A stretch of DNA of 64,000 nucleotides, from NCBI RefSeq assembly GCF_002159945.1, contig NZ_NFJQ01000007.1, forward strand, positions 124,001 through 188,000, written 5' to 3'. Every line of letters starts with the position of its first letter. Positions within the stretch are counted from its first letter, which is position 1. The position numbers and the translations under genes are program-made. Source of the DNA: Cloacibacillus sp. An23. Lineage in GTDB: Bacteria > Synergistota > Synergistia > Synergistales > Synergistaceae. The notes beneath the pieces are model-generated. The model was not told the DNA's origin. It did not search any database and saw nothing but the letters and a program-made list of their open reading frames with translations. Below are positions 20,622-56,330 of this stretch, piece after piece.

Positions 20622-20698
<77 letters not shown>

Positions 20699-42349: not shown

Positions 42350-42375
42350 TACAGCGAAAAGGAGTGAGTCGGACG

Positions 42376-43215
42376 ATGGACATGATTCTCGAGGAACGCG
42401 CGGCGGCTGCCGGGTTGACGGAAAAGGACAGAAAAGTTCTGGACTTCATAATCGGGGACAAAAAAAGCGCCTGCTTCATGTCCTCCAACGAAATAGCGGC
42501 CCGCATCGGCACGAGCCCCTCCACCGTCGTCCGCCTCTCGAAAAAACTCGGCTACGGGAGCTTTGCGGCCTTCCGCCGCGCGCTGCAGAGAGAGCTGACC
42601 GGCGCGGAGGACGGCGGCGCGCGCGCGGGCCTCCCGATCCGCGGCGAGCCGGACGACGGAGCGGCTCTTGCGCTCTACTCGCGCAATGTCGCCGCCAACA
42701 TAGCGGCGCAGAACACGCCCGAAAACGACAGGAAAATAGCCGAGGCCGCCGGACTCGCCGCGAATGCGCGCAATCTATACGTCGCAGGCTTCCGTGCCTG
42801 CGCTGGCTTCGCCGCAGCCGCGGCGGTGCAGCTTGCCTGCGCGCGGCCGCGCGTCATAACGACCGGCGAAGGCCGCCCGTTCGTAGACGAACTGGTGGAC
42901 ATATCGTCCGAAGACGCGCTCATCATAATCTCCTTCGCACGCTACTCAAGCGACGCCGCCGTCGCGGCTCAGATAGCGCGCGACGCCGGATGCCCCGTCA
43001 TAGCCATGACCGACAGCTTCGCCGCCCCGGCCGCGCGCGGAGCCGCGAAGGTCATCCTAAGCCGCAGCGGCGGCGCGGGCTACCTTGACTCGCACGTCGG
43101 CTTCCTCGTAAACATGGAAAAGCTGATACTCCTCGTAAACCGCCGCCTGGAACACGAAAACGCCGCGCGCCGCGAAAGGCTGGAAAAATATCTGCAGAAG
43201 ACCGGGAAATACTAG
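42376..43215 (+). CDS. RpiR/MurR-family transcriptional regulator
   Basis: A 279-residue regulator: N-terminal helix-turn-helix_6 (about residues 5-80, with FMSSNEIAARIGTSPSTVVRLSKKLGY) and C-terminal SIS domain (about 105-240) that binds a sugar phosphate or related ligand. The ATG at 42376 has GGAG at a proper distance; a GTG at 42364 is in frame but lies too close to that site. It is divergent from the MATE/FrhB-like genes and likely controls itself and them. The neighbouring sugar-acid island on the other side is a second possible target. Confidence 0.88.
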   Translation: MDMILEERAAAAGLTEKDRKVLDFIIGDKKSACFMSSNEIAARIGTSPSTVVRLSKKLGYGSFAAFRRALQRELTGAEDGGARAGLPIRGEPDDGAALALYSRNVAANIAAQNTPENDRKIAEAAGLAANARNLYVAGFRACAGFAAAAAVQLACARPRVITTGEGRPFVDELVDISSEDALIIISFARYSSDAAVAAQIARDAGCPVIAMTDSFAAPAARGAAKVILSRSGGAGYLDSHVGFLVNMEKLILLVNRRLEHENAARRERLEKYLQKTGKY

Positions 43216-43267
43216 AAAAGCGGCAGGAACGGTTCTTTCGCTTTTCGGTCATAAAATAAAATAATAC

Positions 43268-43322
43268 GGCCCTCCCGCCGGATAGATCTGTATCTTTGTA
43301 TGTTCCGGCAGGACGGTCGTAT
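43268..43322. terminator. possible convergent terminator
   Basis: An imperfect dyad (CCTCCCGCCGGA ... TCCGGCAGGACGG) lies between the ends of two convergent genes. No strong T run, so weak support. Confidence 0.35.
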
Positions 43323-43358
43323 CGTCATATAACTTGCTGTTTTAGAAGATTTTATTTG

Positions 43359-44348
43359 TTACGGCATAATATATTCGTGCCGCGCCATATATTCCTCTAC
43401 CTGCCCAAGCGTGGGCATGGAACCCGAGCAGCTATGCCCGGAAATCGTGATCGCCGAGGCGGCGGCCGCGTAACGAAGGCTTTCCTCCGGCTGCATATCG
43501 TGCACCAAACCGTACATAAAGGCCCCCGAATATGAATCGCCGGCACCGAAGGTTTTCAACACCTTTGCCTGATATATGCCTCCGGTCGTCATACTGTTTT
43601 TTGTATAAACGTGCGACCCTTGTTTTCCTTTTTTTATGCTTACTACGGTTACACCTCGGTCGATAAGCCTTTGGGCCGTAAGGCTGTCGTCATGCACTTC
43701 GCCGTAATACAAACTCTCCATAATATCAAATTCGTCCCGTGTGCCTAAGACGACATCTGCCTGCTCCGCTGCCAGCGTTAAATAGGTTCCTGCTTTTTCG
43801 GCGTCGTCCCACGTATAGTCGCGATAATCCAAATCAAACGCGACCTTTACGTTATTACGTTTAGCCAGGGCGATAGCCTTGAAAACGGCTTCTCTCGCCG
43901 GTGAATGTGACAGGGAGGTGCCGGAAATCAAGATTATTTTGTGCGAAGCGATATATTCCTCGTCAAGCTCCGAGCATTCGATATGAAGATCGGCGCAGTC
44001 CTTCCGATATACGAAATAGTTGCATTTATCGGGCAGGATTTCTCCTATCGTAACGCCGCAGCGTATCCCAGGCTGCGCCGTCTTTATATGGGAGGTGTCA
44101 ACTTTGGCTCCGTTAAGATAATTGACGATATATCTGCCGAAAGGATCGTCAGCGACCTTGCCGATATAACCGACCTTCATTCCGAGCTTCGCCATAGCGA
44201 CCGCCGTGTTGGCTGGGGAGCCGCCGACATATTTGCTGAATGTAGACGCCTCTTCCAGCGGGCCTATCTCGTTGGCATAAAGATCTACGGTGGATCTGCC
44301 CATCGCTACGACGTCGTTCGGCTTGGCGCCATCTAATGATAGTATCAT
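43359..44348 (-). CDS. PfkB-family sugar kinase, close to 5-dehydro-2-deoxygluconokinase (IolC)
   Basis: A 329-residue ribokinase-family enzyme. The substrate lid region has FSKYVGGSPANTAVAMAKLG and the catalytic base Asp is in TFGAGDSYSGAFMYG. Many stretches match Bacillus IolC from memory (VDLYANE, FSKYVGGSPAN, RDYTW, IVLGTRDEFD). It would phosphorylate a keto sugar acid or similar compound. It is coupled by a four-base overlap to a class I aldolase gene and ends the operon. Exact substrate unproven: no other myo-inositol genes are in the window. Confidence 0.85.
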   Translation of the reverse strand: MILSLDGAKPNDVVAMGRSTVDLYANEIGPLEEASTFSKYVGGSPANTAVAMAKLGMKVGYIGKVADDPFGRYIVNYLNGAKVDTSHIKTAQPGIRCGVTIGEILPDKCNYFVYRKDCADLHIECSELDEEYIASHKIILISGTSLSHSPAREAVFKAIALAKRNNVKVAFDLDYRDYTWDDAEKAGTYLTLAAEQADVVLGTRDEFDIMESLYYGEVHDDSLTAQRLIDRGVTVVSIKKGKQGSHVYTKNSMTTGGIYQAKVLKTFGAGDSYSGAFMYGLVHDMQPEESLRYAAAASAITISGHSCSGSMPTLGQVEEYMARHEYIMP

Positions 44349-45166
44349 CTGCCGTCTCCGCGCGAGTGCTCCAAATACTCGAGATATTCCAATGCCTCTT
44401 TGACTGAAATGCCCTCGTGGATGACGCGGGACAACGTCTTTACAAGAGCGGTTATATCACGGTAGCTGAAAACGAAACGCCCGTATGTTACGCCGGCCGC
44501 CCCCGCGTCCATAACGTCTCTGGTCATAGAGATATATTCCTCTGCGGATTTACAGTGGAAGCCGCCGGCTATGGCGACGCGGGCCGGAACGGCGGCGACC
44601 ACCTTTGCAAAACTTTCCGCGCTTCCTGTGTAATTCGTCTTGATCAGGTCTACGCCGAGCTCCGCCGCCGCCCTCGCGGCGTAGATGACGTTTTCGACTT
44701 TGTACTGGTCTGTGCCGGCGATATGGTTGCCGCGTGGATAAATATGGGAGACCAGCGGCATGCCGTACCGCTGCGCATCTTTGCTGATTCGCCCGAGCAT
44801 GGATATCTGCTCCTTCTGATTGTCTCCGCCGACTATACATCCGACCGATACGGCGTCCGCTCCGAGGAGTATGGCTTCCTCAACATCGGCGACCTGAACG
44901 TCCTCGTCGAAATGATATACGCCGAACGTCGTCAGCTTCAGCACGAGAGCGACTTTGCCCGCGTACGGCGCGAAACACTTTTCGGCTATTCCTTTGTGCA
45001 TAGTTATGGCGTTAGGGCCTCCGGCTATCATTTTCTCCAGCGTATCATCGATGTTGTCCAGCCCCGGCATTACTCCGCGCGCGATGGCATGATCCACGGT
45101 CAGGCCGAAATATTTCCCGTCCTCTCCCGGAATGAGCCTTTTTAAACGAATTTCTTTTCCAAGCAT
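44345..45166 (-). CDS. class I aldolase of the DhnA/FbaB (LsrF-like) family
   Basis: A 273-residue DeoC/LacD superfamily TIM barrel. The Schiff-base lysine is in DLIKTNYTGS, the N-terminal acid in LTVDHAIARG and phosphate-binding glycines in IAGGFHCKS and GVTYGR. Family members cleave or transfer phosphorylated sugars (fructose-bisphosphate aldolase I, LsrF, shikimate-precursor synthases). Coupled to the IolC-like kinase, it probably cleaves the product of that kinase. Confidence 0.82.
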   Translation of the reverse strand: MLGKEIRLKRLIPGEDGKYFGLTVDHAIARGVMPGLDNIDDTLEKMIAGGPNAITMHKGIAEKCFAPYAGKVALVLKLTTFGVYHFDEDVQVADVEEAILLGADAVSVGCIVGGDNQKEQISMLGRISKDAQRYGMPLVSHIYPRGNHIAGTDQYKVENVIYAARAAAELGVDLIKTNYTGSAESFAKVVAAVPARVAIAGGFHCKSAEEYISMTRDVMDAGAAGVTYGRFVFSYRDITALVKTLSRVIHEGISVKEALEYLEYLEHSRGDGR

Positions 45167-45190
45167 TTCTATCCCTCTATTTCTAAGATG

Positions 45191-46504
45191 TTATCCGCCG
45201 AAGAGATTAACGAAGAAGAATATGTATTTCGGACATACTGTAGTGATGACGATAGCTATAAGACCAACTCCGATGAATGGCACGGCTTCTCGCACCGTAT
45301 CCCCGAACGTAGAATCGGCTATTTTAGTGCTGACGAAAATCCCGACGGCGAACGGCGGCGTGAGGAAGCCGACACACATATTTACGAGCATAATCGCGCC
45401 GAAATGTATCGGATCTATACCGTACGTAAGCGCCACGGGAAGGAGCAGCGGCGTCATTATCAAAATCGTGGCGTTGATATCCATGAACGTCCCCATGAAA
45501 AGGAATATGATGTTGATCATAATCAGGAAACCCGCCGTCGTAGTAATATTCTCGGTAATGACGCCAGACAGGAAATTGGAGATCCCGGCCAGAGTCATGA
45601 CCTTTCCCGCCACAGCCGAGAATGCGTTGAGAAGACCGATGACTGCTGTAGACGCTCCCGCGATGGCGCAGCATTTCCAGAACGTCATCTTTATTCTGTT
45701 TTTATCTATTATTTTCAGCGCGGCGAAATAAAGTATCCCATACACGCAGCTGATGGCGCCGGCTTCCGTTACGGTGCACAGCCCGCCGTAGATACTGCCG
45801 TAAATGATTATCGGCATCAAAAGCGCCGGTGTGGCATATACTGTAGATTTGCTGATGTCCTTTATCCTCTCGACAGGGTGGCGTACTACCTTGGCGGGTT
45901 TCGGCATATGCCGTCCTATACGCCAATAGTTGATTATAAAATATCCAATCGCGAACACGAAGGCAGGACCTATCGTAGACATCCAAACAGGGGTGATTTT
46001 AGCCCCCGAGGCTAAGGCGTACATTATTCCAGGTACGCTTGGCGGTATCAGTATCCCCAGAAAGCAGGTGGCGGCGAGCAGCGCGGAGGAATATCCGTTG
46101 GGGTATCCATCCTTCTTTAATTCGGGCACCATCATCTTACCGATTGCGCTGATAGTCGCCATCGCCGACCCGGTAAGAACGCCGAAAGCCATACATGCGC
46201 ATATCGTAATGATGCCCGTCGCGCCGCGCACTCTGCCGACGAAAGCTTTTACCCAGTCGATCAGCATTTTGGAAATCCCGCTGTATTCCATAATTACTCC
46301 GGCGAAGATATAGAACGGTATCGCAAGCAGAGCGAAACTGTCTAGGCCTGAGAAAGCGAACTGCGGCACAGTCACCGTGTTGAATCCGGCGTAACCTAGA
46401 ACCAGCAGAGAAGCCGTACCCAGCCCGAAAGATACGGGCATACGGAAAAGCACCGTTACGGCAGCAAAAGATACTAAAAACACAAGCAACGCAATTAACG
46501 CCAT
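45191..46504 (-). CDS. dctM: TRAP transporter large membrane subunit
   Basis: A 437-residue polytopic DctM-family protein (about 12 helices) that provides the Na+-coupled transport path. Family blocks include IPFYIFAGVIMEYSGIS, GLLTGS-like GVLTGSAMATISAIGKMMVP and ILIPPSVPGIMYAL. Forms the transporter with the dctQ and dctP products, encoded just upstream. The ligand is probably a sugar acid judging by the neighbours. Confidence 0.93.
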   Translation of the reverse strand: MALIALLVFLVSFAAVTVLFRMPVSFGLGTASLLVLGYAGFNTVTVPQFAFSGLDSFALLAIPFYIFAGVIMEYSGISKMLIDWVKAFVGRVRGATGIITICACMAFGVLTGSAMATISAIGKMMVPELKKDGYPNGYSSALLAATCFLGILIPPSVPGIMYALASGAKITPVWMSTIGPAFVFAIGYFIINYWRIGRHMPKPAKVVRHPVERIKDISKSTVYATPALLMPIIIYGSIYGGLCTVTEAGAISCVYGILYFAALKIIDKNRIKMTFWKCCAIAGASTAVIGLLNAFSAVAGKVMTLAGISNFLSGVITENITTTAGFLIMINIIFLFMGTFMDINATILIMTPLLLPVALTYGIDPIHFGAIMLVNMCVGFLTPPFAVGIFVSTKIADSTFGDTVREAVPFIGVGLIAIVITTVCPKYIFFFVNLFGG

Positions 46505-46518
46505 ATCATTTCACCTCT

Positions 46519-47067
46519 TTATTGTTCTACGGCTGCGTCGGTATTATGCTTGCGGTGTCTTTCCATCCATTCGGCAAGCAGGTATATTTCATGGAAAGCA
46601 CATAATACTATGCCAATAAACACAGGCAGGTACACAAGGCCCATAGGTATGTGCATCGTGGGAGAAGTCTGGGTCGTGTTCCAGATCCGCATCATATAGT
46701 CGAAAAACATTTTGCCGAACACGACGAGAAAAATGAATGTTGAAATGATCGCAAAAAGCTCAAGCGTTCTCAGCCCTTTGCTGCGGAAAGGCTCTTTTGT
46801 GTTGCCTACCACTTGTTTCAGCACGTCTATTTCAGTATGGCTGCCCTCCCATATTGCGTACGCCGAACCTATATATGTGAGCCATATAAAGAGATAACGT
46901 GTAAGTTCCTCAGCCCACGCGGCTGAGATAAAAAGAAAGTATCTGCAAAACACTTCCACGGATATTGCGACGACCAACCCTATCGTAATAAGTGAAAGAA
47001 TAAAAGTTTCGACCCCCAATACTTTATCGTTCAGCCATCTTATCCTTTTGATGCCGCTGCCGTCCAT
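46519..47067 (-). CDS. dctQ: TRAP transporter small membrane subunit
   Basis: A 182-residue four-helix DctQ-family protein with the characteristic block FISAAWAEELTRYLFIWLTYIGSA. It pairs with the large subunit. A strong AGGAGGT site precedes the ATG, helping translation after the hairpin that separates it from dctP. Confidence 0.92.
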   Translation of the reverse strand: MDGSGIKRIRWLNDKVLGVETFILSLITIGLVVAISVEVFCRYFLFISAAWAEELTRYLFIWLTYIGSAYAIWEGSHTEIDVLKQVVGNTKEPFRSKGLRTLELFAIISTFIFLVVFGKMFFDYMMRIWNTTQTSPTMHIPMGLVYLPVFIGIVLCAFHEIYLLAEWMERHRKHNTDAAVEQ

Positions 47068-47095
47068 TTTGCCTGCAACCTCCTGCTTTTTGTTT

Positions 47096-47131
47096 ATAAA
47101 ACGGCCTGAAACTCGGTTGAGCTCCAGGCCG
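47096..47131 (-). terminator. hairpin between dctP and dctQ (partial terminator)
   Basis: CGGCCTG (47102-47108) pairs with CAGGCCG (47125-47131); on the minus strand the stem is followed by TTTTAT. It would allow more binding protein than membrane subunits to be made. Confidence 0.65.
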
Positions 47132-47148
47132 CAGACTTTATGGGAATG

Positions 47149-48156
47149 CTACTTCTTGGATAAAGTTTTGTATTCGCCGCTGATGATTACGTCCATTATT
47201 TCATCGCCGTACTTGGCGCGGCTTTCATCCCATATCGCCTTTGAAATTTTCGCCATTTCCGCTTTCATATTTTCGGAAGGCTGATCCACCGTCCACTGAC
47301 CGCTTTTAACTCCGTCCTGAGTAAGCTTCTGCGTCTTGTCACGGAAGAACTTTGTGAAATCGTTGGACACGGCCTGGGCGCATTCTGCGAATATAGCTTT
47401 ATCCTCATCGCTTAACTTCTCCCAGAACGGCGCGCCTGCGATAAAACAGCCGCCGGAGTAGCAGTAGTTGATCTCCGTTATATGCTTGATGACGTCGGTG
47501 ATGCCCTGATTGGTGTAGTTGAACACAGCGTTGTCAAGCCCGTCTACCGTGCCTGTCTGGAGTGCGTTCAGAACCTCTGAGCCGGAGATCATTACCGGAA
47601 GCGCGCCGCATCTCTCGTAAAATTCAACGACGGCTTCGACTGAAGGCGTGCGGATTTTCAAACCGGCGAGATCCTTCATTTCTTTGACGGGACGCTTGAT
47701 GTTCCCAACCTGCCTGAAGCCGTTGCAGAACGAAGAAATCCTGATAAATCCGTTTTTCGCCATGATCTTCGCGACTTCCTGCGCGATCCAGCCGTTGTTG
47801 TAATAAGCGTCCGCCTCCTCATAGTTGGAAACGAGCCCGGGAAGCCACGCGAAGCCGAGCGCGCCGTTAAGCACGCCGTCCAGCGTCATGTCGTCGCTCA
47901 TGAGCACGTCAAGCGTTCCCATCTGAAGCATCTGCGCCATATCAGCTCCGGTTCCGAGAGAACCTGCCGCGATAACGTTTGCGGCATAGCGTCCGTTTGT
48001 TTTTTCTTCAATCAGTTTAGCAAACTGCTCCACATACGGAGCTCTGTCTCCTGTTACGTCGGCGGTAACGGTGAACCTCGTCGCGGCCTCCGCGCCAAAC
48101 GCGACGACGCCTATTGCGAACAGCGAACATATTATTCCGATAAAACTTTTCTTCAT
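47149..48156 (-). CDS. dctP: TRAP transporter solute-binding protein
   Basis: A 335-residue DctP-family periplasmic protein. Signal peptide at residues 1-24 (cut near GAEA-AT). The mature N-terminus RFTVTADVTGDRAPYVEQ, IRTPSVEAVVEFYERCGALP and NALQTGTVDGLDN are family patterns; the Arg of IRTPSVE normally binds the carboxylate of the ligand. So an organic or sugar acid is the likely cargo. Between the class II aldolase gene and dctQ. Confidence 0.93.
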   Translation of the reverse strand: MKKSFIGIICSLFAIGVVAFGAEAATRFTVTADVTGDRAPYVEQFAKLIEEKTNGRYAANVIAAGSLGTGADMAQMLQMGTLDVLMSDDMTLDGVLNGALGFAWLPGLVSNYEEADAYYNNGWIAQEVAKIMAKNGFIRISSFCNGFRQVGNIKRPVKEMKDLAGLKIRTPSVEAVVEFYERCGALPVMISGSEVLNALQTGTVDGLDNAVFNYTNQGITDVIKHITEINYCYSGGCFIAGAPFWEKLSDEDKAIFAECAQAVSNDFTKFFRDKTQKLTQDGVKSGQWTVDQPSENMKAEMAKISKAIWDESRAKYGDEIMDVIISGEYKTLSKK

Positions 48157-48177
48157 AAACGTTACTCCTTTCTCAAC

Positions 48178-48792
48178 TTATTTGATACTGGGATTCATCA
48201 GCGCTTGAAAAACAGCAATCTTAGCGCTGTCTTCAAGCAATTCGGCTTGATTGAAACAGTCTTCCATTGTCTTGCCAACGATTAAAACGCCATGAGCTTC
48301 CATTAAAAACGCATTTATATCATTCGGCGTATTGGAAACAACGCTCACCACCTTATTTACAAGATCGTCAGACCCTGGGGCGCTGACTGGGATTATTGGC
48401 ACATCTTTTAACTTCAGCCTCGCGGATTCCGTATAAAGATGTAGTTTCTTTTGATTAAGAGAAGCGATTATTGAGAATGTCGGATGCAGGTGCACGACAT
48501 AACAAACCTCAGGACGTGCCTTATATACCCCGATATGAAGCCCGAGCTCTTTGGACGGCTTGATGTTTGCGGGGCTTTCAATGACATTTCTGTCCATGCC
48601 GCATAGGACTAAGTTGTCATGTGAAGTATTTCGTAACGGGACGTTAGTACCCGTAATCAAAACCCTGTCGCCGCATCTTGCGCTTATATTTCCGCCCGCT
48701 GCGCTGACCAGCTTCATGCTGTACGCAAGCTTTGAATATTCAACGATTTCATTAGCCTGGACGGCATATTTTTCTTTTATCATGTTATTCAT
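48178..48792 (-). CDS. class II aldolase/adducin-family protein (OtnC/FucA-like)
   Basis: A 204-residue zinc-dependent aldolase-fold protein. Zinc ligands are in VVHLHPTF (two histidines near residue 100) and EAHGVLIVG (third histidine), with the catalytic acid in KPSKELGLHIGVYKA. Length fits FucA/OtnC. OtnC decarboxylates 3-oxo-tetronate 4-phosphate to dihydroxyacetone phosphate and CO2; FucA cleaves fuculose phosphate. Its start overlaps the end of the four-carbon acid-sugar kinase by eight bases, favouring the OtnC role. Confidence 0.83.
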   Translation of the reverse strand: MNNMIKEKYAVQANEIVEYSKLAYSMKLVSAAGGNISARCGDRVLITGTNVPLRNTSHDNLVLCGMDRNVIESPANIKPSKELGLHIGVYKARPEVCYVVHLHPTFSIIASLNQKKLHLYTESARLKLKDVPIIPVSAPGSDDLVNKVVSVVSNTPNDINAFLMEAHGVLIVGKTMEDCFNQAELLEDSAKIAVFQALMNPSIK

Positions 48793-50026
48793 TTGCGTCT
48801 CCCCTGCGGCACATCATTTTTTCCAACACGCTTACGTCGCCCATACTGCCGCCTTTCATTACGAATTCTTTCCCGCCCCATATCCCATCCAGAATGTGCC
48901 CTTCGGCTACGCCGGGCTCCAGCGAAAGCCCCAGTTCAAGCTGCCCTACGCCGAGGTTTTTATAAATTGTCTGAGCTGTTTCCCCGCCTACGATTAAAAG
49001 ACGGTCAAACATTATGTCTTCCCCTGACAGAATTTTTGTGATCGTGCCGATGCATTCAAGTATTTTTACATTGGTTCCTGGCTTCTTGGAATATTTTCTT
49101 ACCGAAGGCGTTATGATTACGTTATGCTCCCGCAGAATTTCGACGGCGGATTCTGCTGCAGAAAACGGAATTGAGCCGTCGCCGTCAATATATGCGTCGA
49201 TATCTGCGCAGACGATTTTCAGCCCCAGACTGTGGGAGTATTCTATCTGCCTTTTTGCTATGTCGTAATCGGAGGCGCTGAAACAAAGGCATCGTATATC
49301 TCTTCGCTGCGGCTTGTAGCATATTGAGCGGGGGCCGTATAAAAACTCTGCCAGCCCGTTTGCGATGCCGAGAGAACCCGTCCAGAAGACTTTATCATAT
49401 ACAGGCATTAGTTCTGAGATAATCTTGAGCGTGTCTTTATCTGTGACGGCGTCGAATACTATTATTTTTTTCCCTTCGTCCAACTCTTCCGCGGTCGCTC
49501 TTCTAATATCTCCGCCTTTAACAACGTCTATATCTACAAGGCCGACCGGGATTTGCGTATCTTTCGCCAATATCCTTGGAATATAAGGGTCTGTAGGCGG
49601 ATAGATCGGATCGTTCGCATATAATGATTTATGCAGTATCTCGCCCTCGCAGTACTGATTCCCGTACAATGTAAACGTTCCAAGCTCCGGTGCGTTGTCG
49701 ATAATAAACACGACGTAATCCTGTCGCGCCTTTAGAAGCCCTTCGAGCTCATATGGGTCGTTGCCGCGAAAGCCGGTGCCTATTTTTTTCATAAAGATTT
49801 CTCCTTTTGTCTCACGCATTTTAGACAAAAGGTCATAATGCAATTTCCCTGCAAGCTGTTTGGCGACGTTTCTTGACGAGAGGTTGAACGAATGTATTTC
49901 ACCGTGACACGGATTGGGGACATCGCTTCCGGATGTATAAATTCGAAGCCTCTGCCCCCTGCCGGTGAAATAACTGCCTGAGTCTACCGCGCCGGTTAAA
50001 TCGTCTGTTATCTCCGTGAAAAACAT
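48785..50026 (-). CDS. four-carbon acid-sugar kinase (DUF1537, OtnK-like)
   Basis: About 413 residues from the ATG at 50026, which is preceded by GGTGAT and begins exactly with the family N-terminus ITDDLTGAVDSGSYFTGRGQ. The frame is open 29 codons further up. The C-terminal half has VGGETAQTIYKNLGVGQLEL and GVAEGHILDG, the nucleotide-binding part. OtnK, DtnK and DenK phosphorylate 3-oxo-tetronate, threonate or erythronate. It heads the operon and is coupled to the class II aldolase. No oxidising dehydrogenase or OtnI isomerase accompanies it, so the true substrate may be an already oxidised acid. Confidence 0.85.
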   Translation of the reverse strand: MFFTEITDDLTGAVDSGSYFTGRGQRLRIYTSGSDVPNPCHGEIHSFNLSSRNVAKQLAGKLHYDLLSKMRETKGEIFMKKIGTGFRGNDPYELEGLLKARQDYVVFIIDNAPELGTFTLYGNQYCEGEILHKSLYANDPIYPPTDPYIPRILAKDTQIPVGLVDIDVVKGGDIRRATAEELDEGKKIIVFDAVTDKDTLKIISELMPVYDKVFWTGSLGIANGLAEFLYGPRSICYKPQRRDIRCLCFSASDYDIAKRQIEYSHSLGLKIVCADIDAYIDGDGSIPFSAAESAVEILREHNVIITPSVRKYSKKPGTNVKILECIGTITKILSGEDIMFDRLLIVGGETAQTIYKNLGVGQLELGLSLEPGVAEGHILDGIWGGKEFVMKGGSMGDVSVLEKMMCRRGDANE

Positions 50027-50050
50027 ATCTCTATCACCACTTGAAAAAGC

Positions 50051-50064
50051 TGTTCTTTCGAACA
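50051..50064. promoter_or_regulatory. operator-like palindrome 1 (DeoR-type), downstream of -10
   Basis: TGTTCTTTCGAACA, an imperfect dyad sharing TGTT-N4-CGAACA with the second copy at 50155. It lies between the -10 box and the kinase start codon. Confidence 0.6.
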
Positions 50065-50098
50065 TATAAAAACATTTATTGTGTTCCTTAATGGCTAA

Positions 50099-50127
50099 AA
50101 AATAGCATGACATGGTGTTTTAGTCAA
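50099..50127 (-). promoter_or_regulatory. promoter of the sugar-acid operon
   Basis: Minus-strand TTGACT (complement of 50122-50127) and TATTTT (complement of 50099-50104), 17 bases apart, flanked on each side by one copy of the same palindrome. Confidence 0.6.
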
Positions 50128-50154
50128 TGCTTTTTACATTATGTTAGCATTAAA

Positions 50155-50168
50155 TGTTTGAACGAACA
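50155..50168. promoter_or_regulatory. operator-like palindrome 2 (DeoR-type), upstream of -35
   Basis: TGTTTGAACGAACA; ten of fourteen positions equal palindrome 1 (TGTT-N4-CGAACA). The two sit 104 bases apart, allowing a loop over the promoter. Confidence 0.6.
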
Positions 50169-50208
50169 TTATTGCTGTGATGAAAGCGCCATGACGAAGT
50201 CATATATA

Positions 50209-50234
50209 AAAACGGCGTAAATCCACGCCGTTTT
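50209..50234 (-). terminator. terminator after the DeoR-family gene
   Basis: AAAACGGCGT and ACGCCGTTTT form a perfect 10-bp stem with a six-base loop, 28 bases past the regulator stop. Confidence 0.8.
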
Positions 50235-50261
50235 AACCTGTCGATAGAATTGTTGATTTTA

Positions 50262-51053
50262 TTAAACTAGTTTGAATTTAATATTTGCTTTTGAAAGACA
50301 TTCCTGCCATTCAGGCGACAGCTTGTTATCTGTGATGATCATGTCGATGTCGCTGATGTCAGCAAAATGGTTTGCTTTAACAACGCCGAATTTACTGCTG
50401 TCTGCCATAATGATATTCACGGCCGACGATGCGATCATCGCTCTTTTATGTTCTACCAGCAAGGAATTGATGCATGTAATGCCCAGGCTTTCATGTATAC
50501 CGGATACTGACAGAAAGGATTTGTTCGCTCTATGCCTGCGAATAAAATCGACGGCTTCGGATGAAGTGAAGTTATAATCTTCCGGATGGTAGTATCCCCC
50601 AGGGAAAATAATCTTTATATTTGGATGTTTCAGCAACTCCAGTAAAATCGCAAAATTGTAACATACCGCCGTGAATTCAAAGTCTGTCGGCAAGTAGTGC
50701 ACTATTCGCGCCACGGTAGTGCCGTTATCGAGAAAAATCCAATCTCCCGGGCTGACGAGCGTCGCGGCATATTTGGCGACGCGGTCTTTTTCGTTTATAT
50801 TTTGAATTCTGGCCATGCGAAGGTCATACACTTCGCCGTCGTTCGCATAGCCGTAGCCGCTTTTTACAAGCGTGGCGTATCCGTGGCTCCTCTCAAGCAC
50901 GTGATTTTTCCTCAACAGCTCGAGATCTCTTCTGATCGTCATCACGGAAACATTCAGCATCTCGGCAAGCTCTTTCACGGAGACGTACTGCCGCTTTTTT
51001 AAAAGCTCCAATTCCTGCGCTATTCTACGCTCCCTATTTTTTATGTTTTCCAT
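50262..51053 (-). CDS. DeoR/GlpR-family transcriptional regulator of the sugar-acid operon
   Basis: About 263 residues from the ATG at 51053; the frame extends 22 codons further to 51119. The helix-turn-helix is YVSVKELAEMLNVSVMTIRRDLELL, diagnostic of the family. The sensor domain has the DeoRC patterns WIFLDNGTTVARI, IIFPGGYYH, and the ending HKRAMIASSAVNIIMADSSKF. It senses a phosphorylated intermediate in known members. It lies directly upstream of the operon it likely represses, where two matching palindromes flank the promoter. Confidence 0.9.
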   Translation of the reverse strand: MENIKNRERRIAQELELLKKRQYVSVKELAEMLNVSVMTIRRDLELLRKNHVLERSHGYATLVKSGYGYANDGEVYDLRMARIQNINEKDRVAKYAATLVSPGDWIFLDNGTTVARIVHYLPTDFEFTAVCYNFAILLELLKHPNIKIIFPGGYYHPEDYNFTSSEAVDFIRRHRANKSFLSVSGIHESLGITCINSLLVEHKRAMIASSAVNIIMADSSKFGVVKANHFADISDIDMIITDNKLSPEWQECLSKANIKFKLV

Positions 51054-51320
51054 GCTCTCACTTGCCTTGCGTCGCTGTCCTTGTTTTTGCAGCGCAGACT
51101 GTCTTCGGCTGCGCATCAAAATCTTCTAAAAGCTACCGTATTATGCATTATTTTTGTCTTACAGGCAATATGGATTTGTAACGCCGCCTAAATGAAGATA
51201 CGTCTTGGAAAATCTGATCGTAGAAAATAGGCGGCGGATGTTCTTTTGCGGAATCGTATGCTGATTTTTCTCGTTGTCTGATGTTTCTTTGCTTCGTTTT
51301 ATGCGGCGTATGACGAAATA

Positions 51321-52214
51321 CTAAAGCGGTTCGCCGGATTTCGTCAGCTCAGGGAGATATTTTTTTATGTAGTCGAGGAAGCGCCGCGCAGCTGGGGACA
51401 GCTCTTCTTCGGGGCGCAGTCCCATGATGACTGTTCTGAAGAACGGCGGGTCTATTCGTTTCGTCACGACGCCTTCGCCGTGTCCCAGAAGCTGGAGCGC
51501 GGGGTATGTGCTTACGCCGAGGCCGCAGGCCGCCATCGAGATCACCGACTGGTCGGTGGAGCTTATCTTCATGTCCGGCATCGGCCCGTACTGCTCTTCG
51601 TAAGCCTTTATGACCGGGTGCGAGTCTTCTATGTCGTTGACTATGAAGGTTCCGTCGCCGAAGGCTTTGAGCGGAAACGTCTCAGCGCCGCACATCGGAT
51701 GTCCCGGCGGCAGGACTGCGAGGATTGGGTCCCTCATTATCTTCACGTACCGGAACTTCTGCCCGCGCCGCGCGCTCAGAAAGCCCACGTCTACGCGGTT
51801 TTCTTCGAGCCAGCGCTCTATTTCGTGTACGTCGCCCTCGAGCACGTCTATCTCTATCTTAGGATAATCCTTATGGAATTCCCGTATGACGGGCGGCATC
51901 AGGTGGTACGATACGCTCGAATAGCAGCCTATGCGGACGCGCCCGACGCTCACCCCCTTTATTTCTTCGGCCGTCTCGTAAAACCGCTCGTTCCAGCGCA
52001 CGATCTCGCGCATTACCGGCACCATGCGCTCGCCTTCGGGCGTGAGGCGCACGCCGTCCTTCTCGCGGATGAGAAGCGGGAAGCCGCACTCCTCCTCTAT
52101 CTTTTTCACGATGAGGCTGACGCCCGCCTGTGTATAGCCGAGCGCGAACGCCGCCTTCGTTATGCTGCCCCTGTCCGCCGTCCTCAGAAAAGCCGCGCAG
52201 CTTTTCGCGTCCAT
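51321..52214 (-). CDS. LysR-family transcriptional regulator
   Basis: About 297 residues from the ATG at 52214 (GGGGCGGAG upstream); the open frame runs to 52367 but homologues begin at MDAKSCAAFLRTADRGSITK. The helix-turn-helix is about residues 15-60 and the effector domain 90-290. It is divergent from a small membrane protein gene, its likely target. Confidence 0.88.
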   Translation of the reverse strand: MDAKSCAAFLRTADRGSITKAAFALGYTQAGVSLIVKKIEEECGFPLLIREKDGVRLTPEGERMVPVMREIVRWNERFYETAEEIKGVSVGRVRIGCYSSVSYHLMPPVIREFHKDYPKIEIDVLEGDVHEIERWLEENRVDVGFLSARRGQKFRYVKIMRDPILAVLPPGHPMCGAETFPLKAFGDGTFIVNDIEDSHPVIKAYEEQYGPMPDMKISSTDQSVISMAACGLGVSTYPALQLLGHGEGVVTKRIDPPFFRTVIMGLRPEEELSPAARRFLDYIKKYLPELTKSGEPL

Positions 52215-52329
52215 GTCTCCGCCCCCCATACATAATAAAATTTTATGCCCGATATAATATTTCATTGTTTTACTTATGTCTATGAAAGGAGTATGCTCTT
52301 TTTGTAACAAAGAAGGAGGCAGTATTGTG

Positions 52330-52594: not shown

Positions 52595-53398
52595 TCAGGC
52601 GAGGCTGACGCTCCTCCGTTCAGGCAGGCCGCCGCGTTTTACGCAGCCGGCGGCGAGGGTTCCATTTTTGCCTGTTTCGGGCGGCGCGATGAAATTTTCC
52701 GCCGCGAGCGACTGAGCCGTCAGAGGGCATATTATCACGGTCGTTTTTTCGCCGCATGCTTCGGTCAGCCGTTTCAGGAATGGCAGGGTAAATTCTTCCG
52801 CCATCATCTTCGCGTATTTGGGGCCGAGGATGTCGCGGCTTCCCGCCGGGTCGGAGTATGATATGTATTTTACGCCGGCCGCGCTGATTTCGCGCGCGAA
52901 GTCGAGCAGCATATCCCCGATGGAGCGGAGGCAGCGCCTCGCCGTTTCGGGCTCTTTGCGCCAGCTTTTGAAGAAGCCGTTCAGCGGCATCATGCAGCTC
53001 AAAATGGAGATCGGGCCGCTGAGCTGGTAGACGACGGCGCGCCCTTCCGACGCCAGGGCGGAGCATGCTTCTATCAGCCGCGCGGCCTCCGGGGTTTTCG
53101 CTATAATGGCCGGCGTCAGCTCTTCGGGGCTTTTGAGCGTGTACGCGCCGGGGCGCGGCCCGGCGGCGTCGTCGGCCGGCTTTATGTCCGCGCCGAGGGC
53201 TTTCGCCTCTACGGTGTGGCAGAACGGCAGCAGCGCGAATCCACGTCCGTCGGCCTCTTCCGCCGCTTTCGCGAGCTTTATGATGTTTTCCTGGCTCGCG
53301 TAAATCTCGCCGGGCGGCATTCCGAGCGAGCGTATCAGCTCCGGCGAGATCATTTCCTGGTTTTCCGGCGAACATGTCATTGAGAGCAGGTCGTTCAT
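52595..53398 (-). CDS. atypical short uroporphyrinogen-decarboxylase-family methyltransferase paralogue
   Basis: A 267-residue member of the UROD/MtaA superfamily, last in a minus-strand methyl-transfer operon. It keeps the N-terminal LLPFCHTVEAKALGADI and central ISYSDPAGSRDILGPKYAKM blocks. It is ~75-100 residues shorter than its two neighbours, and the zinc motif His-x-Cys is replaced: it reads Ile222-Ile-Cys224 (VIICPLTAQS), with a later Cys252. It could be a distinct subfamily with other metal ligands or a non-catalytic partner. A 124-base gap and GAAAGAAGG site separate it from the preceding gene. Confidence 0.78.
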   Translation of the reverse strand: MNDLLSMTCSPENQEMISPELIRSLGMPPGEIYASQENIIKLAKAAEEADGRGFALLPFCHTVEAKALGADIKPADDAAGPRPGAYTLKSPEELTPAIIAKTPEAARLIEACSALASEGRAVVYQLSGPISILSCMMPLNGFFKSWRKEPETARRCLRSIGDMLLDFAREISAAGVKYISYSDPAGSRDILGPKYAKMMAEEFTLPFLKRLTEACGEKTTVIICPLTAQSLAAENFIAPPETGKNGTLAAGCVKRGGLPERRSVSLA

Positions 53399-53522
53399 GT
53401 ATTTTCCTTCTTTCGTGCCGTGGGGCGCGCCGCTCCGCGTATCCTCCGCCTGCGTGGAGCGCGTCTGAGGTTTTTGCGGTGCGGCGCGTTTTTCGTCTTT
53501 TGCTTTTGCGGCCCCGCCCGGC

Positions 53523-54545
53523 TTATGCGTTCGCGTGCGGTTCCGCGTTTTTGGCCTCTTCCACCATCGCGCGGATGTTTCCGAGCGGTGTGTCGAGCGG
53601 CAGGCCGCACGCGGGGGCGACTATGTCCACGCCCATTTCGAGCGCGTTGCGCGTGAGGCCTCGCACTTTGTCCTCGGGCATCGTGCCTATGGCGTGGGTG
53701 TTGACGTTGCCCATGACGGCCTTGCCGGGAAGGTAGGGGCGTATCTCGCGCGCGTTGACTATCGCGTCGAAGCTGAATGCGTCGCAGTGCAGAGCGGCAA
53801 GTTCGCCGTAGACGCTGCGCAGTTTGCCGCAGATATGCACTATCTTCGTCGGCGCGTCTATCGCGTCGAGCAGGCGGTTGATGTAAGGCACGGTGAATTC
53901 GCGGAACCTGGCAGCGCCGAGTATCTCGCCGGTGCCGCTGGGCTCCGCGACGCATATCACGTCGGCTCCTGCGCCGGCCATGGCGCGCCCGTAGGTTATG
54001 AGCGCGTCCGTGATGACGTCGAGCAGATGCGCGCACTGGTCGGGACGCCGGCGCATCTCGTTGAGAAAGACGCTCATGTCTACGAGCGTCCCGGCGACGC
54101 TGACGGGCCCCGTTATGCTGCCGGCGACTGGGACGCCGGCGCTGCGCAGCTTGAGTATGCGTATCGCCTCTATCACGGCGGCGGCGCGGCCTTTCGTAAC
54201 GTCGAAGGGCTTCAGCCCGTCCGCTTCGGCGCACGATGCAAGCGCGGGGCGCACTACATGCGGCTCGACTTCGCTGTCTCCCATGTCCACCTCGGCGCCG
54301 AGCGCCTCCGCCTCGACGGTCATGCAGAAGGGCACGCCGTAGTTTTCAAAGCCGCCGCTTTCGCAGAGGGCGCGCGCGAGATCCGCCATCATCTGTGCGT
54401 CGCAGTGGGCCTTCGGCCAGTAGATGCCTGTTTTGAGCATGACGTCTTCGACGACGCCGTTCATCATTCCGCCGGGACAGACGCACGGCGCGCGGTCCAC
54501 CGTTTTGCCGTGGGCCGCTCCGTACAGCCTTTCAAGCGGCGTCAT
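53523..54545 (-). CDS. corrinoid-dependent methyltransferase of the uroporphyrinogen decarboxylase family (MtaA/CmuA-like)
   Basis: A 340-residue TIM-barrel methyltransferase. Zinc ligands are His237 and Cys239 (VHICGK) and Cys313 (PACGLPLDTP), as in MtaA/MtbA. The N-terminal PFCMTVEAEALGAEVDMGD block is shared by the superfamily. It would move a methyl group between the corrinoid protein encoded just upstream and a thiol, THF or other acceptor/donor. True uroporphyrinogen decarboxylases lack this Cys set. It follows the corrinoid gene after three bases. Confidence 0.88.
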   Translation of the reverse strand: MTPLERLYGAAHGKTVDRAPCVCPGGMMNGVVEDVMLKTGIYWPKAHCDAQMMADLARALCESGGFENYGVPFCMTVEAEALGAEVDMGDSEVEPHVVRPALASCAEADGLKPFDVTKGRAAAVIEAIRILKLRSAGVPVAGSITGPVSVAGTLVDMSVFLNEMRRRPDQCAHLLDVITDALITYGRAMAGAGADVICVAEPSGTGEILGAARFREFTVPYINRLLDAIDAPTKIVHICGKLRSVYGELAALHCDAFSFDAIVNAREIRPYLPGKAVMGNVNTHAIGTMPEDKVRGLTRNALEMGVDIVAPACGLPLDTPLGNIRAMVEEAKNAEPHANA

Positions 54546-54548
54546 GCG

Positions 54549-55220
54549 CTACCTTTCTCTCGACTGTCCCGATTTTTCGGAGACGAGCCTGTCTACAAGC
54601 TTCACCGCCTCGGTCGCGTTGGCCGAGTAGCCGTCCGCCTCTATCTTTCTCGCGAAGGATTCGGATATAGGCGCGCCGCCGATTATCACGGAGACGCGGT
54701 CACGCACGCCCTCGCTCTTCAGCAGCTCTATTATTTTGCCCATGTTCTTCATCGAGGTGGACATGAGCGTGGAGAGCGCGAGCACGCGCGCGTCCTCTTT
54801 TTTGACTTCTTCGACGAATTTTTCTACGGGTACGTCGCGCCCCAAGTCCGTAACTTCGTATCCGGCGGATTCGAGCATGATCTTGACGAGGTTTTTGCCG
54901 ATGTCGTGGGTGTCGCCCTGCACGACGCCGATGACTATTTTGCACTTCGCGCCGTTTTCGTTTTTCGGCAGCAGCGGGCGCAGCACGTCGAGGCCGTTGT
55001 ACATGGCGGCCGAGCAGCCGAGCAGCTCCGGAATGAAATATTCCTCGCGCTCGTAGAGGTCGGAGGCTTTCTTCATGCCGTCCACGAGGCCGTCTAGTAT
55101 GCCGTCCAGCGCGTCGTATCCGCTGTCGGCGTAAGCCTTAGCCACGTCTATTACTTCGTCTTCCTCCATCTCAAGCACGCAGCGCGACAGCTCCGCGAGA
55201 TAATCTTCCTTTGAACACAT
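54549..55220 (-). CDS. corrinoid (B12)-binding methyl carrier protein (MtaC/MtbC/MttC type)
   Basis: A 223-residue protein with an N-terminal helical cap domain (about 1-88) and a cobalamin-binding Rossmann domain (about 92-215). The cobalt ligand is His105 in GDTHDIGKNL, followed by the later S/T and GGAPIS contacts. It carries the methyl group between two methyltransferases. It sits between the two full-length UROD-family methyltransferase genes. No corrinoid-activating ATPase (RamA/RACo type) gene is near, so it must be encoded elsewhere. Confidence 0.94.
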   Translation of the reverse strand: MCSKEDYLAELSRCVLEMEEDEVIDVAKAYADSGYDALDGILDGLVDGMKKASDLYEREEYFIPELLGCSAAMYNGLDVLRPLLPKNENGAKCKIVIGVVQGDTHDIGKNLVKIMLESAGYEVTDLGRDVPVEKFVEEVKKEDARVLALSTLMSTSMKNMGKIIELLKSEGVRDRVSVIIGGAPISESFARKIEADGYSANATEAVKLVDRLVSEKSGQSRER

Positions 55221-55226
55221 GTTTAC

Positions 55227-56330
55227 TTACCTCTCTTCCGAAGCGGCGAGCCGCTCCCTGCATTCTTCAAGCATTCCGCGCACGCGGTCGGGATTCACCG
55301 GATATCCGACTTCGCGCACCGTGTCCATCATCATCTGGATGTTCTCGAACGGCGTATCGACCGGCAGGCTGCACCCGGACATGACGACGTAGCCCTTCGG
55401 GTTGTCGTAGCCGTCGAGGATGCACTGCAGCGTCTTCTCGCGCACGTCGAGCGGCGTGCCGGAGTACATGACGCGCCCCGGGTCGACGTTGCCGAGGATT
55501 TTCACCTTGTCCCCGACGATGCGTTTGCAGTCGGCTATGCTCGCCACGTTGTCGATGCTGAGACCGGAAACGCCGAGCGCCGCGACGTCTTCCCATATCT
55601 TGCTCGTCTGTCCGCAGATGTGGATGATGACGCCCTTGCCGCGCCCTTTGATGAACTCGACGAGCTCTTTGAGGTACGGCAGCGAGAACTCGCGGAAGTG
55701 CTTCGGGCTCACGACCGTGCACGAGGACATAGGCTCCGATATTGTCGGCGTCAGCCCTATGTCCATCGCGGCGGCGGCGTAGGCCTTTATCGTCTCCATT
55801 GATATTTTGCAGAGGCGGTGCACCGGCTCGGGATTTTTGCGCAGCATGTTGAGCGTCTTGTCCACCCCCATAAGGAAGAAGGCGTTCGTGAAAGCGCCGG
55901 GAATTCCGCAGGAACAGCCGATTTCGCCTTCAACTGCGTCGCGCAGGTACTTCATGGCCTCGAGGTGCACGGGCAGGCGTCCGTCTTTGAAAGGGTCGGC
56001 CGGGCGCAGCTTGTCTATTTCGCTCACGTCGTTGATCGCGGGCGCCTCGAGGTCGGCGGTGTCGTCCTCGGGGAACTTCACCTTCGCCCCCATCGCCTCG
56101 GCCCACGGGAAAAGGTCTGTGAAAATCCTGATGCTGTCGTAGCCGAACCTCCGGTAAGAGGCCACCTGCGCCGCGGCGAGAGTCTTAGCGTTGTGGTTGA
56201 ATTCGGAAATTTTGCAGCCATAGACGCGCGCCACGCCGTTAGCCACGTTCGGGTTGCACGGAAGGCGGTCCGCAGGCTTCCCCTGCGCTATCGCGGCTCC
56301 GCGCTCCGCCGGTGTCATAGTGTCTGTCAT
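55227..56330 (-). CDS. corrinoid-dependent methyltransferase of the uroporphyrinogen decarboxylase family, second type
   Basis: A 367-residue relative of the 340-residue enzyme. Zinc ligands His237 and Cys239 (IHICGQ) and Cys320 (MSGCSLPVDTP). The N-terminus PADRLPCNPNVANG and LGVSGLSIDNVAS differ clearly from the other paralogue. One of the two probably demethylates the imported substrate, the other passes the methyl group onward. First methyltransferase gene after the ABC transporter genes, and six bases before the corrinoid gene. Confidence 0.88.
   Translation of the reverse strand: MTDTMTPAERGAAIAQGKPADRLPCNPNVANGVARVYGCKISEFNHNAKTLAAAQVASYRRFGYDSIRIFTDLFPWAEAMGAKVKFPEDDTADLEAPAINDVSEIDKLRPADPFKDGRLPVHLEAMKYLRDAVEGEIGCSCGIPGAFTNAFFLMGVDKTLNMLRKNPEPVHRLCKISMETIKAYAAAAMDIGLTPTISEPMSSCTVVSPKHFREFSLPYLKELVEFIKGRGKGVIIHICGQTSKIWEDVAALGVSGLSIDNVASIADCKRIVGDKVKILGNVDPGRVMYSGTPLDVREKTLQCILDGYDNPKGYVVMSGCSLPVDTPFENIQMMMDTVREVGYPVNPDRVRGMLEECRERLAASEER

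Follow-up and report, generated by a model that had tools for sequence, protein, structure and literature searches.

We analysed a 64,000-nucleotide stretch of the Cloacibacillus sp. An23 genome (hereafter the window) and focused on a minus-strand set of eight genes at positions 43359-51053, which runs exactly from the stop codon of an IolC-like kinase gene to the ATG of a DeoR-family repressor gene. We consider the chances roughly even that this set is a self-contained, horizontally acquired sugar-acid island, in which two kinase/aldolase pairs both drain into glycolysis at dihydroxyacetone phosphate (DHAP). The initial annotation had named the eight genes and placed the two pairs around one tripartite ATP-independent periplasmic (TRAP) importer. 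Gene content bears out this arrangement, and coordinates, strand, and gene names all stand, with each of the eight proteins scoring above the Pfam gathering threshold of its family:

50262..51053, minus strand: DeoR-family repressor, 263 aa (DeoRC 151 bits, HTH_DeoR 61 bits)
48785..50026, minus strand: divergent DUF1537 acid-sugar kinase, 413 aa (SBD_N 107.6 bits, threshold 25; NBD_C 38.7 bits, threshold 28.3)
48178..48792, minus strand: class II aldolase / 3-oxo-tetronate-4-P decarboxylase-like protein, 204 aa (Aldolase_II 138.6 bits, threshold 22.2)
47149..48156, minus strand: TRAP solute-binding protein (SBP) DctP (PF03480, 189 bits)
46519..47067, minus strand: TRAP small permease DctQ (PF04290, 88 bits)
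45191..46504, minus strand: TRAP large permease DctM (PF06808, 288 bits; TIGR00786, 312>268)
44345..45166, minus strand: class I (Schiff-base) aldolase of the DeoC/LacD type, MJ0400/DhnA-like (PF01791, 138 bits, threshold 23.8; 2qjg, E=2e-54)
43359..44348, minus strand: IolC-like PfkB kinase, 329 aa (TIGR04382, 349.8>300 bits; 2qcv, E=5e-92)

Composition of the island and the empty site

We compared the base composition of the eight island genes with that of 35 flanking genes from the same window. The GC content of the island is 0.487 (0.439-0.554 for single genes) against 0.614 in the flanks, and its GC content at third codon positions (GC3) is 0.567 (0.473-0.652) against 0.793 (0.682-0.867), with no overlap between the two ranges (Mann-Whitney p about 1e-8). 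The island had been described as A+T-rich, which is true relative to its flanks and not in absolute terms (44-55% GC).

The genes that border the island both encode regulators:

42364..43215, plus strand: RpiR-SIS regulator, left flank; in the sister species it abuts LysR
51321..52220, minus strand: LysR regulator, right flank; abuts the RpiR gene in the sister species

In the sister species (G001, contig C214), the sole other species of the genus compared, these two genes are convergent and overlap by 4 bp, whereas 8105 bp separate them in the window. G001 carries the left flank, with genes for a small heat-shock-like protein, an Fe-S protein, a MATE protein, and RpiR, followed directly by LysR. 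The class I aldolase has no match in G001, and the DUF1537 match there is distant and lies at another locus. No DUF1537 protein of more than 33% identity was found among 60 Synergistota relatives. At E<=1e-50, a search of 188 Synergistota genomes returned the class I aldolase only here and in two other families, with none in the sister species or the remainder of its own family. Gain in this lineage is thus the most likely origin of the island; loss in G001 alone would leave its foreign composition unexplained. Foreign composition and an empty site in a close relative are the marks of a genomic island, and with both in hand the case for horizontal transfer is stronger than when it was first proposed. 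The marks of an integrative mobile element were not found: none of the eight island genes encodes an integrase or transposase, and the sole tRNA gene of the window lies at 20622.

The two kinase/aldolase pairs and the importer

The DUF1537 kinase and the class II aldolase form the first pair (pair A). The DUF1537 protein retains the DDxTGA motif, K81, G88-N89, GG347-348, and K391, and scores below the curated equivalog cut-offs for OtnK (NF043035, 78.8<350) and DtnK (NF047819, 120<450); no PdxA2 is encoded among the island genes. Its partner belongs to the Zn-dependent class II aldolases and conserves E82, H101, H103, and H167, residues also conserved with a native OtnC-like protein of the same genome. 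From what is generally known of FucA, we take these four to have metal-binding and catalytic roles. The protein falls short of the OtnC cut-off (NF043034, 88.1<250).

A second, native DUF1537 and class II aldolase locus lies elsewhere in the genome (G000:C6, about 170.3-176.8 kb; L028:8333-14775), together with what by inspection are a GntP-type permease and a Zn-dehydrogenase, with no LtnD nearby. The kinase of this locus passes the OtnK cut-off (438>350) and its aldolase is below the OtnC cut-off (182<250). The sister species also has the regulator and permease of the native locus, on G001 contig C64, the end of which carries a DUF1537 match. A scan of genome contigs with the island DUF1537 protein gave a single relative, of 23% identity and beside a gene that is PdxA-like by inspection, and did not turn up the same island. 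Loci in Oscillospiraceae (L016) and Ilyobacter (L040) were also set aside, since DUF1537 occurs there in other contexts.

These scores bear on the explanation, improbable in our view, that a threonate/erythronate-type route alone works here with its dehydrogenase encoded elsewhere, and that the IolC-like kinase and its aldolase are an unrelated passenger. Such a route would suit the importer, as SBPs near DctP in sequence include some crystallised with erythronate or pantoate, in a set whose ligands often co-purified (PMC11668362), and it would suit the regulator, as a DeoR repressor controls a cluster of this type in Brucella (PMC10580937). However, family-model searches of the genome, which is 99% complete, left both known dehydrogenases below their cut-offs. 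The best score for the L-threonate dehydrogenase LtnD was 213<350 bits, from among the two clear beta-hydroxyacid dehydrogenases of the genome, and for the D-erythronate dehydrogenase DenD it was 41<325 bits. Their absence from the operon, pointed out in the initial annotation, thus extends to the genome at these cut-offs. The genome also already has the native OtnK-type locus, and the island proteins fail the OtnK and OtnC models.

The second pair (pair B) joins the class I aldolase to the IolC-like kinase. In an alignment with MJ0400 (2qjg) and eight relatives, K176, D25, Y143, GG201-202, and GR229-230 of the aldolase are invariant, and these catalytic and phosphate-site residues, with the PF01791 score, place it among the DeoC/LacD class I aldolases. 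We assume the roles usual in this family for Asp25, Tyr143, Lys176 (the Schiff-base residue), and the Gly-Gly and Gly-Arg phosphate site. The protein passes the NCBIfam subfamily model NF005556 (258.6>241), whose product name is ADH synthase, but this label should not be trusted because the ADH synthase equivalog TIGR01949 is failed (214.5<299.45). Automatic annotation would thus make the enzyme an anabolic ADH synthase of the aroA' type, and MJ0400 is indeed its nearest solved structure. We regard this as highly improbable, given the failed equivalog and a catabolic operon with a kinase and TRAP genes. Relatives of the aldolase likewise sit in kinase/dehydrogenase operons, and its absence at E<=1e-50 from the sister species and the rest of the family, among 188 Synergistota genomes, argues against a housekeeping aromatic enzyme there.

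The kinase scores above the equivalog cut-off for the 5-dehydro-2-deoxygluconokinase IolC (TIGR04382) and is the sole copy to do so in the genome. Compared with the IolC proteins of complete iol operons, it shows 44-47% identity and keeps 57 of the 72 residues that are invariant among five of them. The equivalog score and these likenesses would fit a true lower inositol route, in which imported 5-keto-2-deoxygluconate is phosphorylated by IolC and the class I aldolase replaces IolJ to give DHAP and malonate semialdehyde. We think this unlikely. The best IolD score in the genome is 217<715 bits, and positions invariant in true IolC are altered; for example, YRD replaces YRP at 177, and L replaces K105. 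IolA, IolB, IolE, and IolG, like OtnI, are not in the island; no genome-wide search was made for these five. A Photobacterium kinase (40% identity) was rejected as an island-like context, as its neighbouring genes read as an ordinary iol operon.

It had also been claimed that, by gene content, the substrate is not a known one. We do not uphold this, because the lack of a gene is no proof of a new substrate; moreover, the kinase passes the IolC equivalog, and related architectures combine Zn-dehydrogenases with kinases of the FGGY or IolC-like type.

For the importer, all three TRAP components are present, and R148 and R169 of DctP are invariant among the SBPs compared. A VIA-align search with a structural model of DctP matched TRAP binding proteins generally, and no substrate was read from these matches. 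Scans of virus contigs found nothing that matched the class I aldolase, and four distant matches to DctP. Two viral-classed contigs from IMG/VR carry TRAP SBP genes (L057:3001-3969 and L058:2869-3564), each directly after the same type of open reading frame (ORF), and these are possible virus-borne nutrient-binding proteins.

Under the sugar-acid island reading, DeoR repression would be released when a sugar acid, perhaps in phosphorylated form, accumulates. The TRAP importer would take in one or more polyhydroxy acids, and these would probably already be keto acids because the island encodes no dehydrogenase; the oxidation could otherwise be supplied by an unrelated Zn-dehydrogenase, for example the enzyme encoded next to the native DUF1537 genes. 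In pair B, the IolC-like kinase would phosphorylate C6 of a 5-keto-hexonate, and the Schiff-base aldolase would cut between C3 and C4 to release DHAP and a C3 semialdehyde, most likely tartronate semialdehyde (or malonate semialdehyde). A kinase above the IolC cut-off in a genome with no IolD above its cut-off argues that the 5-keto acid is not made from inositol. Tartronate semialdehyde may be absorbed by a tartronate-semialdehyde (2-hydroxy-3-oxopropionate) reductase, which is one of the two beta-hydroxyacid dehydrogenases mentioned above (406>397 and 366>341 bits), and by a glycerate-kinase-like protein on contig C4 (L074:13576-14940), recognised by sequence inspection only. In pair A, the DUF1537 kinase would act on a keto-tetronate-like C4 acid and phosphorylate its terminal hydroxyl, and the Zn-type class II aldolase homolog would decarboxylate the product to DHAP and CO2, as in the threonate routes outlined in PMC12540250. 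That both pairs end in DHAP, as the initial annotation suggested, is plausible from the conserved phosphate-binding and catalytic residues.

Several observations weigh against this scheme. The island has no dehydrogenase, whereas almost all of its relatives have one. The substrates of the DUF1537 protein and class II aldolase could differ from C4 acids, because both proteins miss every equivalog cut-off. Likewise, the product of pair B could be malonate semialdehyde instead, because the kinase passes the 5-keto-2-deoxygluconokinase model. DctP resembles the erythronate- or pantoate-bound SBPs only distantly, and their ligands often co-purified, so that it does not fix the substrate; its AlphaFold model, built from a three-row alignment, is poor (pLDDT 52.6).

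Transcription units, island ends, and other features

Two pairs of island genes overlap, by 8 bp between the DUF1537 and class II aldolase genes and by 4 bp between the class I aldolase and kinase genes, and both overlaps are typical of co-translated pairs. The following elements lie between and around the genes:

50197..50235, minus strand: terminator-like hairpin 3' of the DeoR gene, AAAACGGCG..CGCCGTTTT (fold z=-4.1)
43255..43318, minus strand: terminator-like hairpin with a T-rich tail 3' of the IolC-like gene (fold z=-4.5, -30.5 kcal/mol)
50099..50127, minus strand: weak promoter-like site ahead of the operon from DUF1537 to IolC, TTGACT-17-TATTTT (extended -10)
43340..43353, plus strand: perfect inverted repeat of 14 bp, left arm, TTTTAGAAGATTTT
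51118..51131, minus strand: right arm of the same inverted repeat, TTTTAGAAGATTTT
43206..43223, plus strand: possible direct repeat, left copy, GAAATACTAGAAAAGCGG; lies on the insertion boundary and overlaps the RpiR stop
51315..51329, plus strand: right copy of the possible direct repeat, GAAATACTAAAGCGG, overlapping the LysR stop

With strong hairpins after both the DeoR gene and the kinase gene, DeoR and the other seven genes are probably transcribed separately. The initial claim of one operon therefore applies to the seven genes from DUF1537 to the IolC-like kinase, with DeoR as a probable unit of its own. The promoter-like site is a weak candidate, since consensus matches in the region are no more numerous than expected by chance. 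We place the DUF1537 start at 50026 rather than 50113, which is probable because the conserved DDxTGA motif directly follows that methionine.

The inverted repeat TTTTAGAAGATTTT occurs in the window in these two copies only, even with up to two mismatches allowed, and none of 300 resamples reached 12 bp or more. It is accompanied by a collinear 9-bp pair (ATAATACGG at 43261 and CCGTATTAT at 51136), and its right arm lies a short way downstream of a weak promoter-like site in front of deoR. The repeat could represent either the ends of a mobile element or paired DeoR sites. The possible direct repeat, GAAATACT(AGA)AAAGCGG, lies exactly at both junctions; as an insertion mark it is suggestive only, with 21 of 5000 resamples and 324 of 19889 random real pairs scoring equally high.

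Three further features were observed away from the island. A corrinoid methyltransferase-like cluster at 52595-56330 of the window encodes three URO-D-family proteins and a B12-binding corrinoid protein, and its last URO-D gene (267 aa) is shorter than the others. At 28052-35690, the genes for a bacterial alpha-2-macroglobulin (1781 aa) and a PBP1C-like penicillin-binding protein lie side by side, as is usual for this pair. Elsewhere in the genome, a CRISPR-Cas type I-like set of Cas3-, Cas5/7/8-, Cas4-, and Cas1-like ORFs was recognised by sequence inspection only (G000:C4, about 208-215.6 kb; L074:1053-8568).

Related loci and comparison with known systems

Relatives of the class I aldolase (40-53% identity) sit in operons of a Zn-dehydrogenase, the aldolase, and an FGGY kinase, several of them with TRAP genes. 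The kinases were named by model in L041, L054, and L079 (discussed below) and by sequence reading in the others:

L041, Rhizobium plasmid: Zn-dehydrogenase, aldolase, and FGGY kinase with TRAP genes and a D-2-hydroxyacid dehydrogenase
L044 and L043, another Synergistales family: FGGY kinase in L044; L043 on a contig too short to show a kinase
L053 and L054, two Clostridia-class genomes: L054 with TRAP genes, a D-2-hydroxyacid dehydrogenase, and a glycerate kinase
L055 and L056, a further Synergistales genus: Zn-dehydrogenase and FGGY kinase beside the aldolase

Only two of 391 Clostridia genomes encode a relative of the aldolase at E<=1e-50, and in neither does an IolC-like kinase lie next to it. 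An IolC-like kinase does occur on a Nitratireductor plasmid (L090), with TRAP genes, a Zn-dehydrogenase, and a class II FBA-type aldolase. By analogy, these loci point to the same chemistry with exchangeable kinases: the dehydrogenases and glycerate kinase of the relatives fit a keto acid that is phosphorylated next to its keto group and cleaved to DHAP and a glycerate-level C3 unit.

A compound sugar-acid locus is found in G761 (L079), a genome of the phylum of the Clostridia-related G061. There, a Zn-dehydrogenase/class I aldolase/FGGY kinase module adjoins a DUF1537/PdxA2/class II aldolase/Zn-dehydrogenase/FGGY kinase module. The DUF1537 protein of G761 is the best DUF1537 match of 398 genomes and has the unusual KGGS[MV]G motif in common with that of the island. 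Chance is an unlikely reason for the two modules to be side by side, because the aldolase is so rare in Clostridia yet is found here beside this best match. The same locus encodes a member of nickel-pincer isomerase group 22 (L079:10917-12233; 563>400 bits), which may act on an epimer that enters these pathways.

The recurrence in G761 qualifies the initial description of the two pairs as independent: each is a kinase/aldolase pair, but the modules may be linked. It also speaks for the idea that they act in sequence on one larger acid (C7 or branched), the first aldolase giving DHAP and a C4 acid from which the DUF1537 pair makes a second DHAP; the operon and importer common to both pairs would suit this too. 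Even so, we hold sequential action to be a rather improbable explanation. Each G761 module has its own Zn-dehydrogenase and FGGY kinase and looks like a parallel route, and no enzyme joins the two pairs in the island.

We also put forward a more specific form of the sugar-acid island reading, tentatively and as more doubtful than that reading as a whole. The IolC-like kinase and DhnA-type aldolase would constitute an uncharacterised degradative route that splits a 5-keto-hexonate (of the 5-keto-gluconate, fructuronate, or tagaturonate class) to DHAP and tartronate semialdehyde, bypassing the Entner-Doudoroff-type hexuronate route. It would be packaged with a new DUF1537/class II aldolase subfamily, marked by KGGS[MV]G, for a companion C4 keto acid, and the two would have moved between phyla as interchangeable kinase/aldolase cassettes.

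In this locus, known modules are joined in a new way, and related combinations occur in other genomes; literature searches for this set of genes turned up no paper that treats it. The locus provides a gene set for assigning function to three poorly resolved groups: to divergent DUF1537 kinases, to DeoC/LacD-type aldolases labelled ADH synthase, and to IolC-like kinases outside inositol operons. The aldolase with FGGY partners in distant bacteria and the IolC-like kinase in a similar TRAP operon suggest sugar-acid routes that are modular and that receive wrong names in standard annotation. With its empty site, the sister species offers a clean natural gain-of-function comparison.

Among characterised systems, PMC12540250 describes the catabolism of L-threonate and D-erythronate (Zhang et al., 2016) through LtnD or DenD, OtnI, OtnK, and OtnC to DHAP. 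The island is like this route in its DUF1537 kinase adjoining a class II aldolase-family decarboxylase, its DeoR-family repressor, and its presumed DHAP end. Unlike it, the island lacks LtnD, DenD, and OtnI, has a kinase and aldolase below the curated cut-offs, and adds a TRAP importer and a second kinase/aldolase pair. The myo-inositol IolC/IolJ step likewise pairs an IolC-type kinase with an aldolase that would give DHAP, but here IolD is below cut-off in the genome, no other Iol enzyme is in the island, and the aldolase is of the Schiff-base type whereas IolJ is a class II FBA-type enzyme.

Among uncharacterised systems, the Zn-dehydrogenase/class I aldolase/FGGY kinase operons (L041, L044, L053-L056) have in common with the island the aldolase, an adjacent kinase, and in several cases the TRAP genes; the island differs in its IolC-like PfkB kinase, its lack of a dehydrogenase, and its additional DUF1537 and class II aldolase genes. 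The Nitratireductor locus likewise places an IolC-like kinase and an aldolase beside TRAP genes, but its aldolase is of another family, it has a dehydrogenase, and it has no DUF1537 pair. In G761, a class I aldolase (50% identity) and kinase stand, as in the island, beside an operon with DUF1537 (28%) and class II aldolase (31%) genes. Unlike the island, G761 has FGGY kinases, several Zn-dehydrogenases, PdxA2, the group 22 isomerase of the NPN (nickel-pincer) type, and an Nramp-type permease, in a locus with neither TRAP genes nor IolC.

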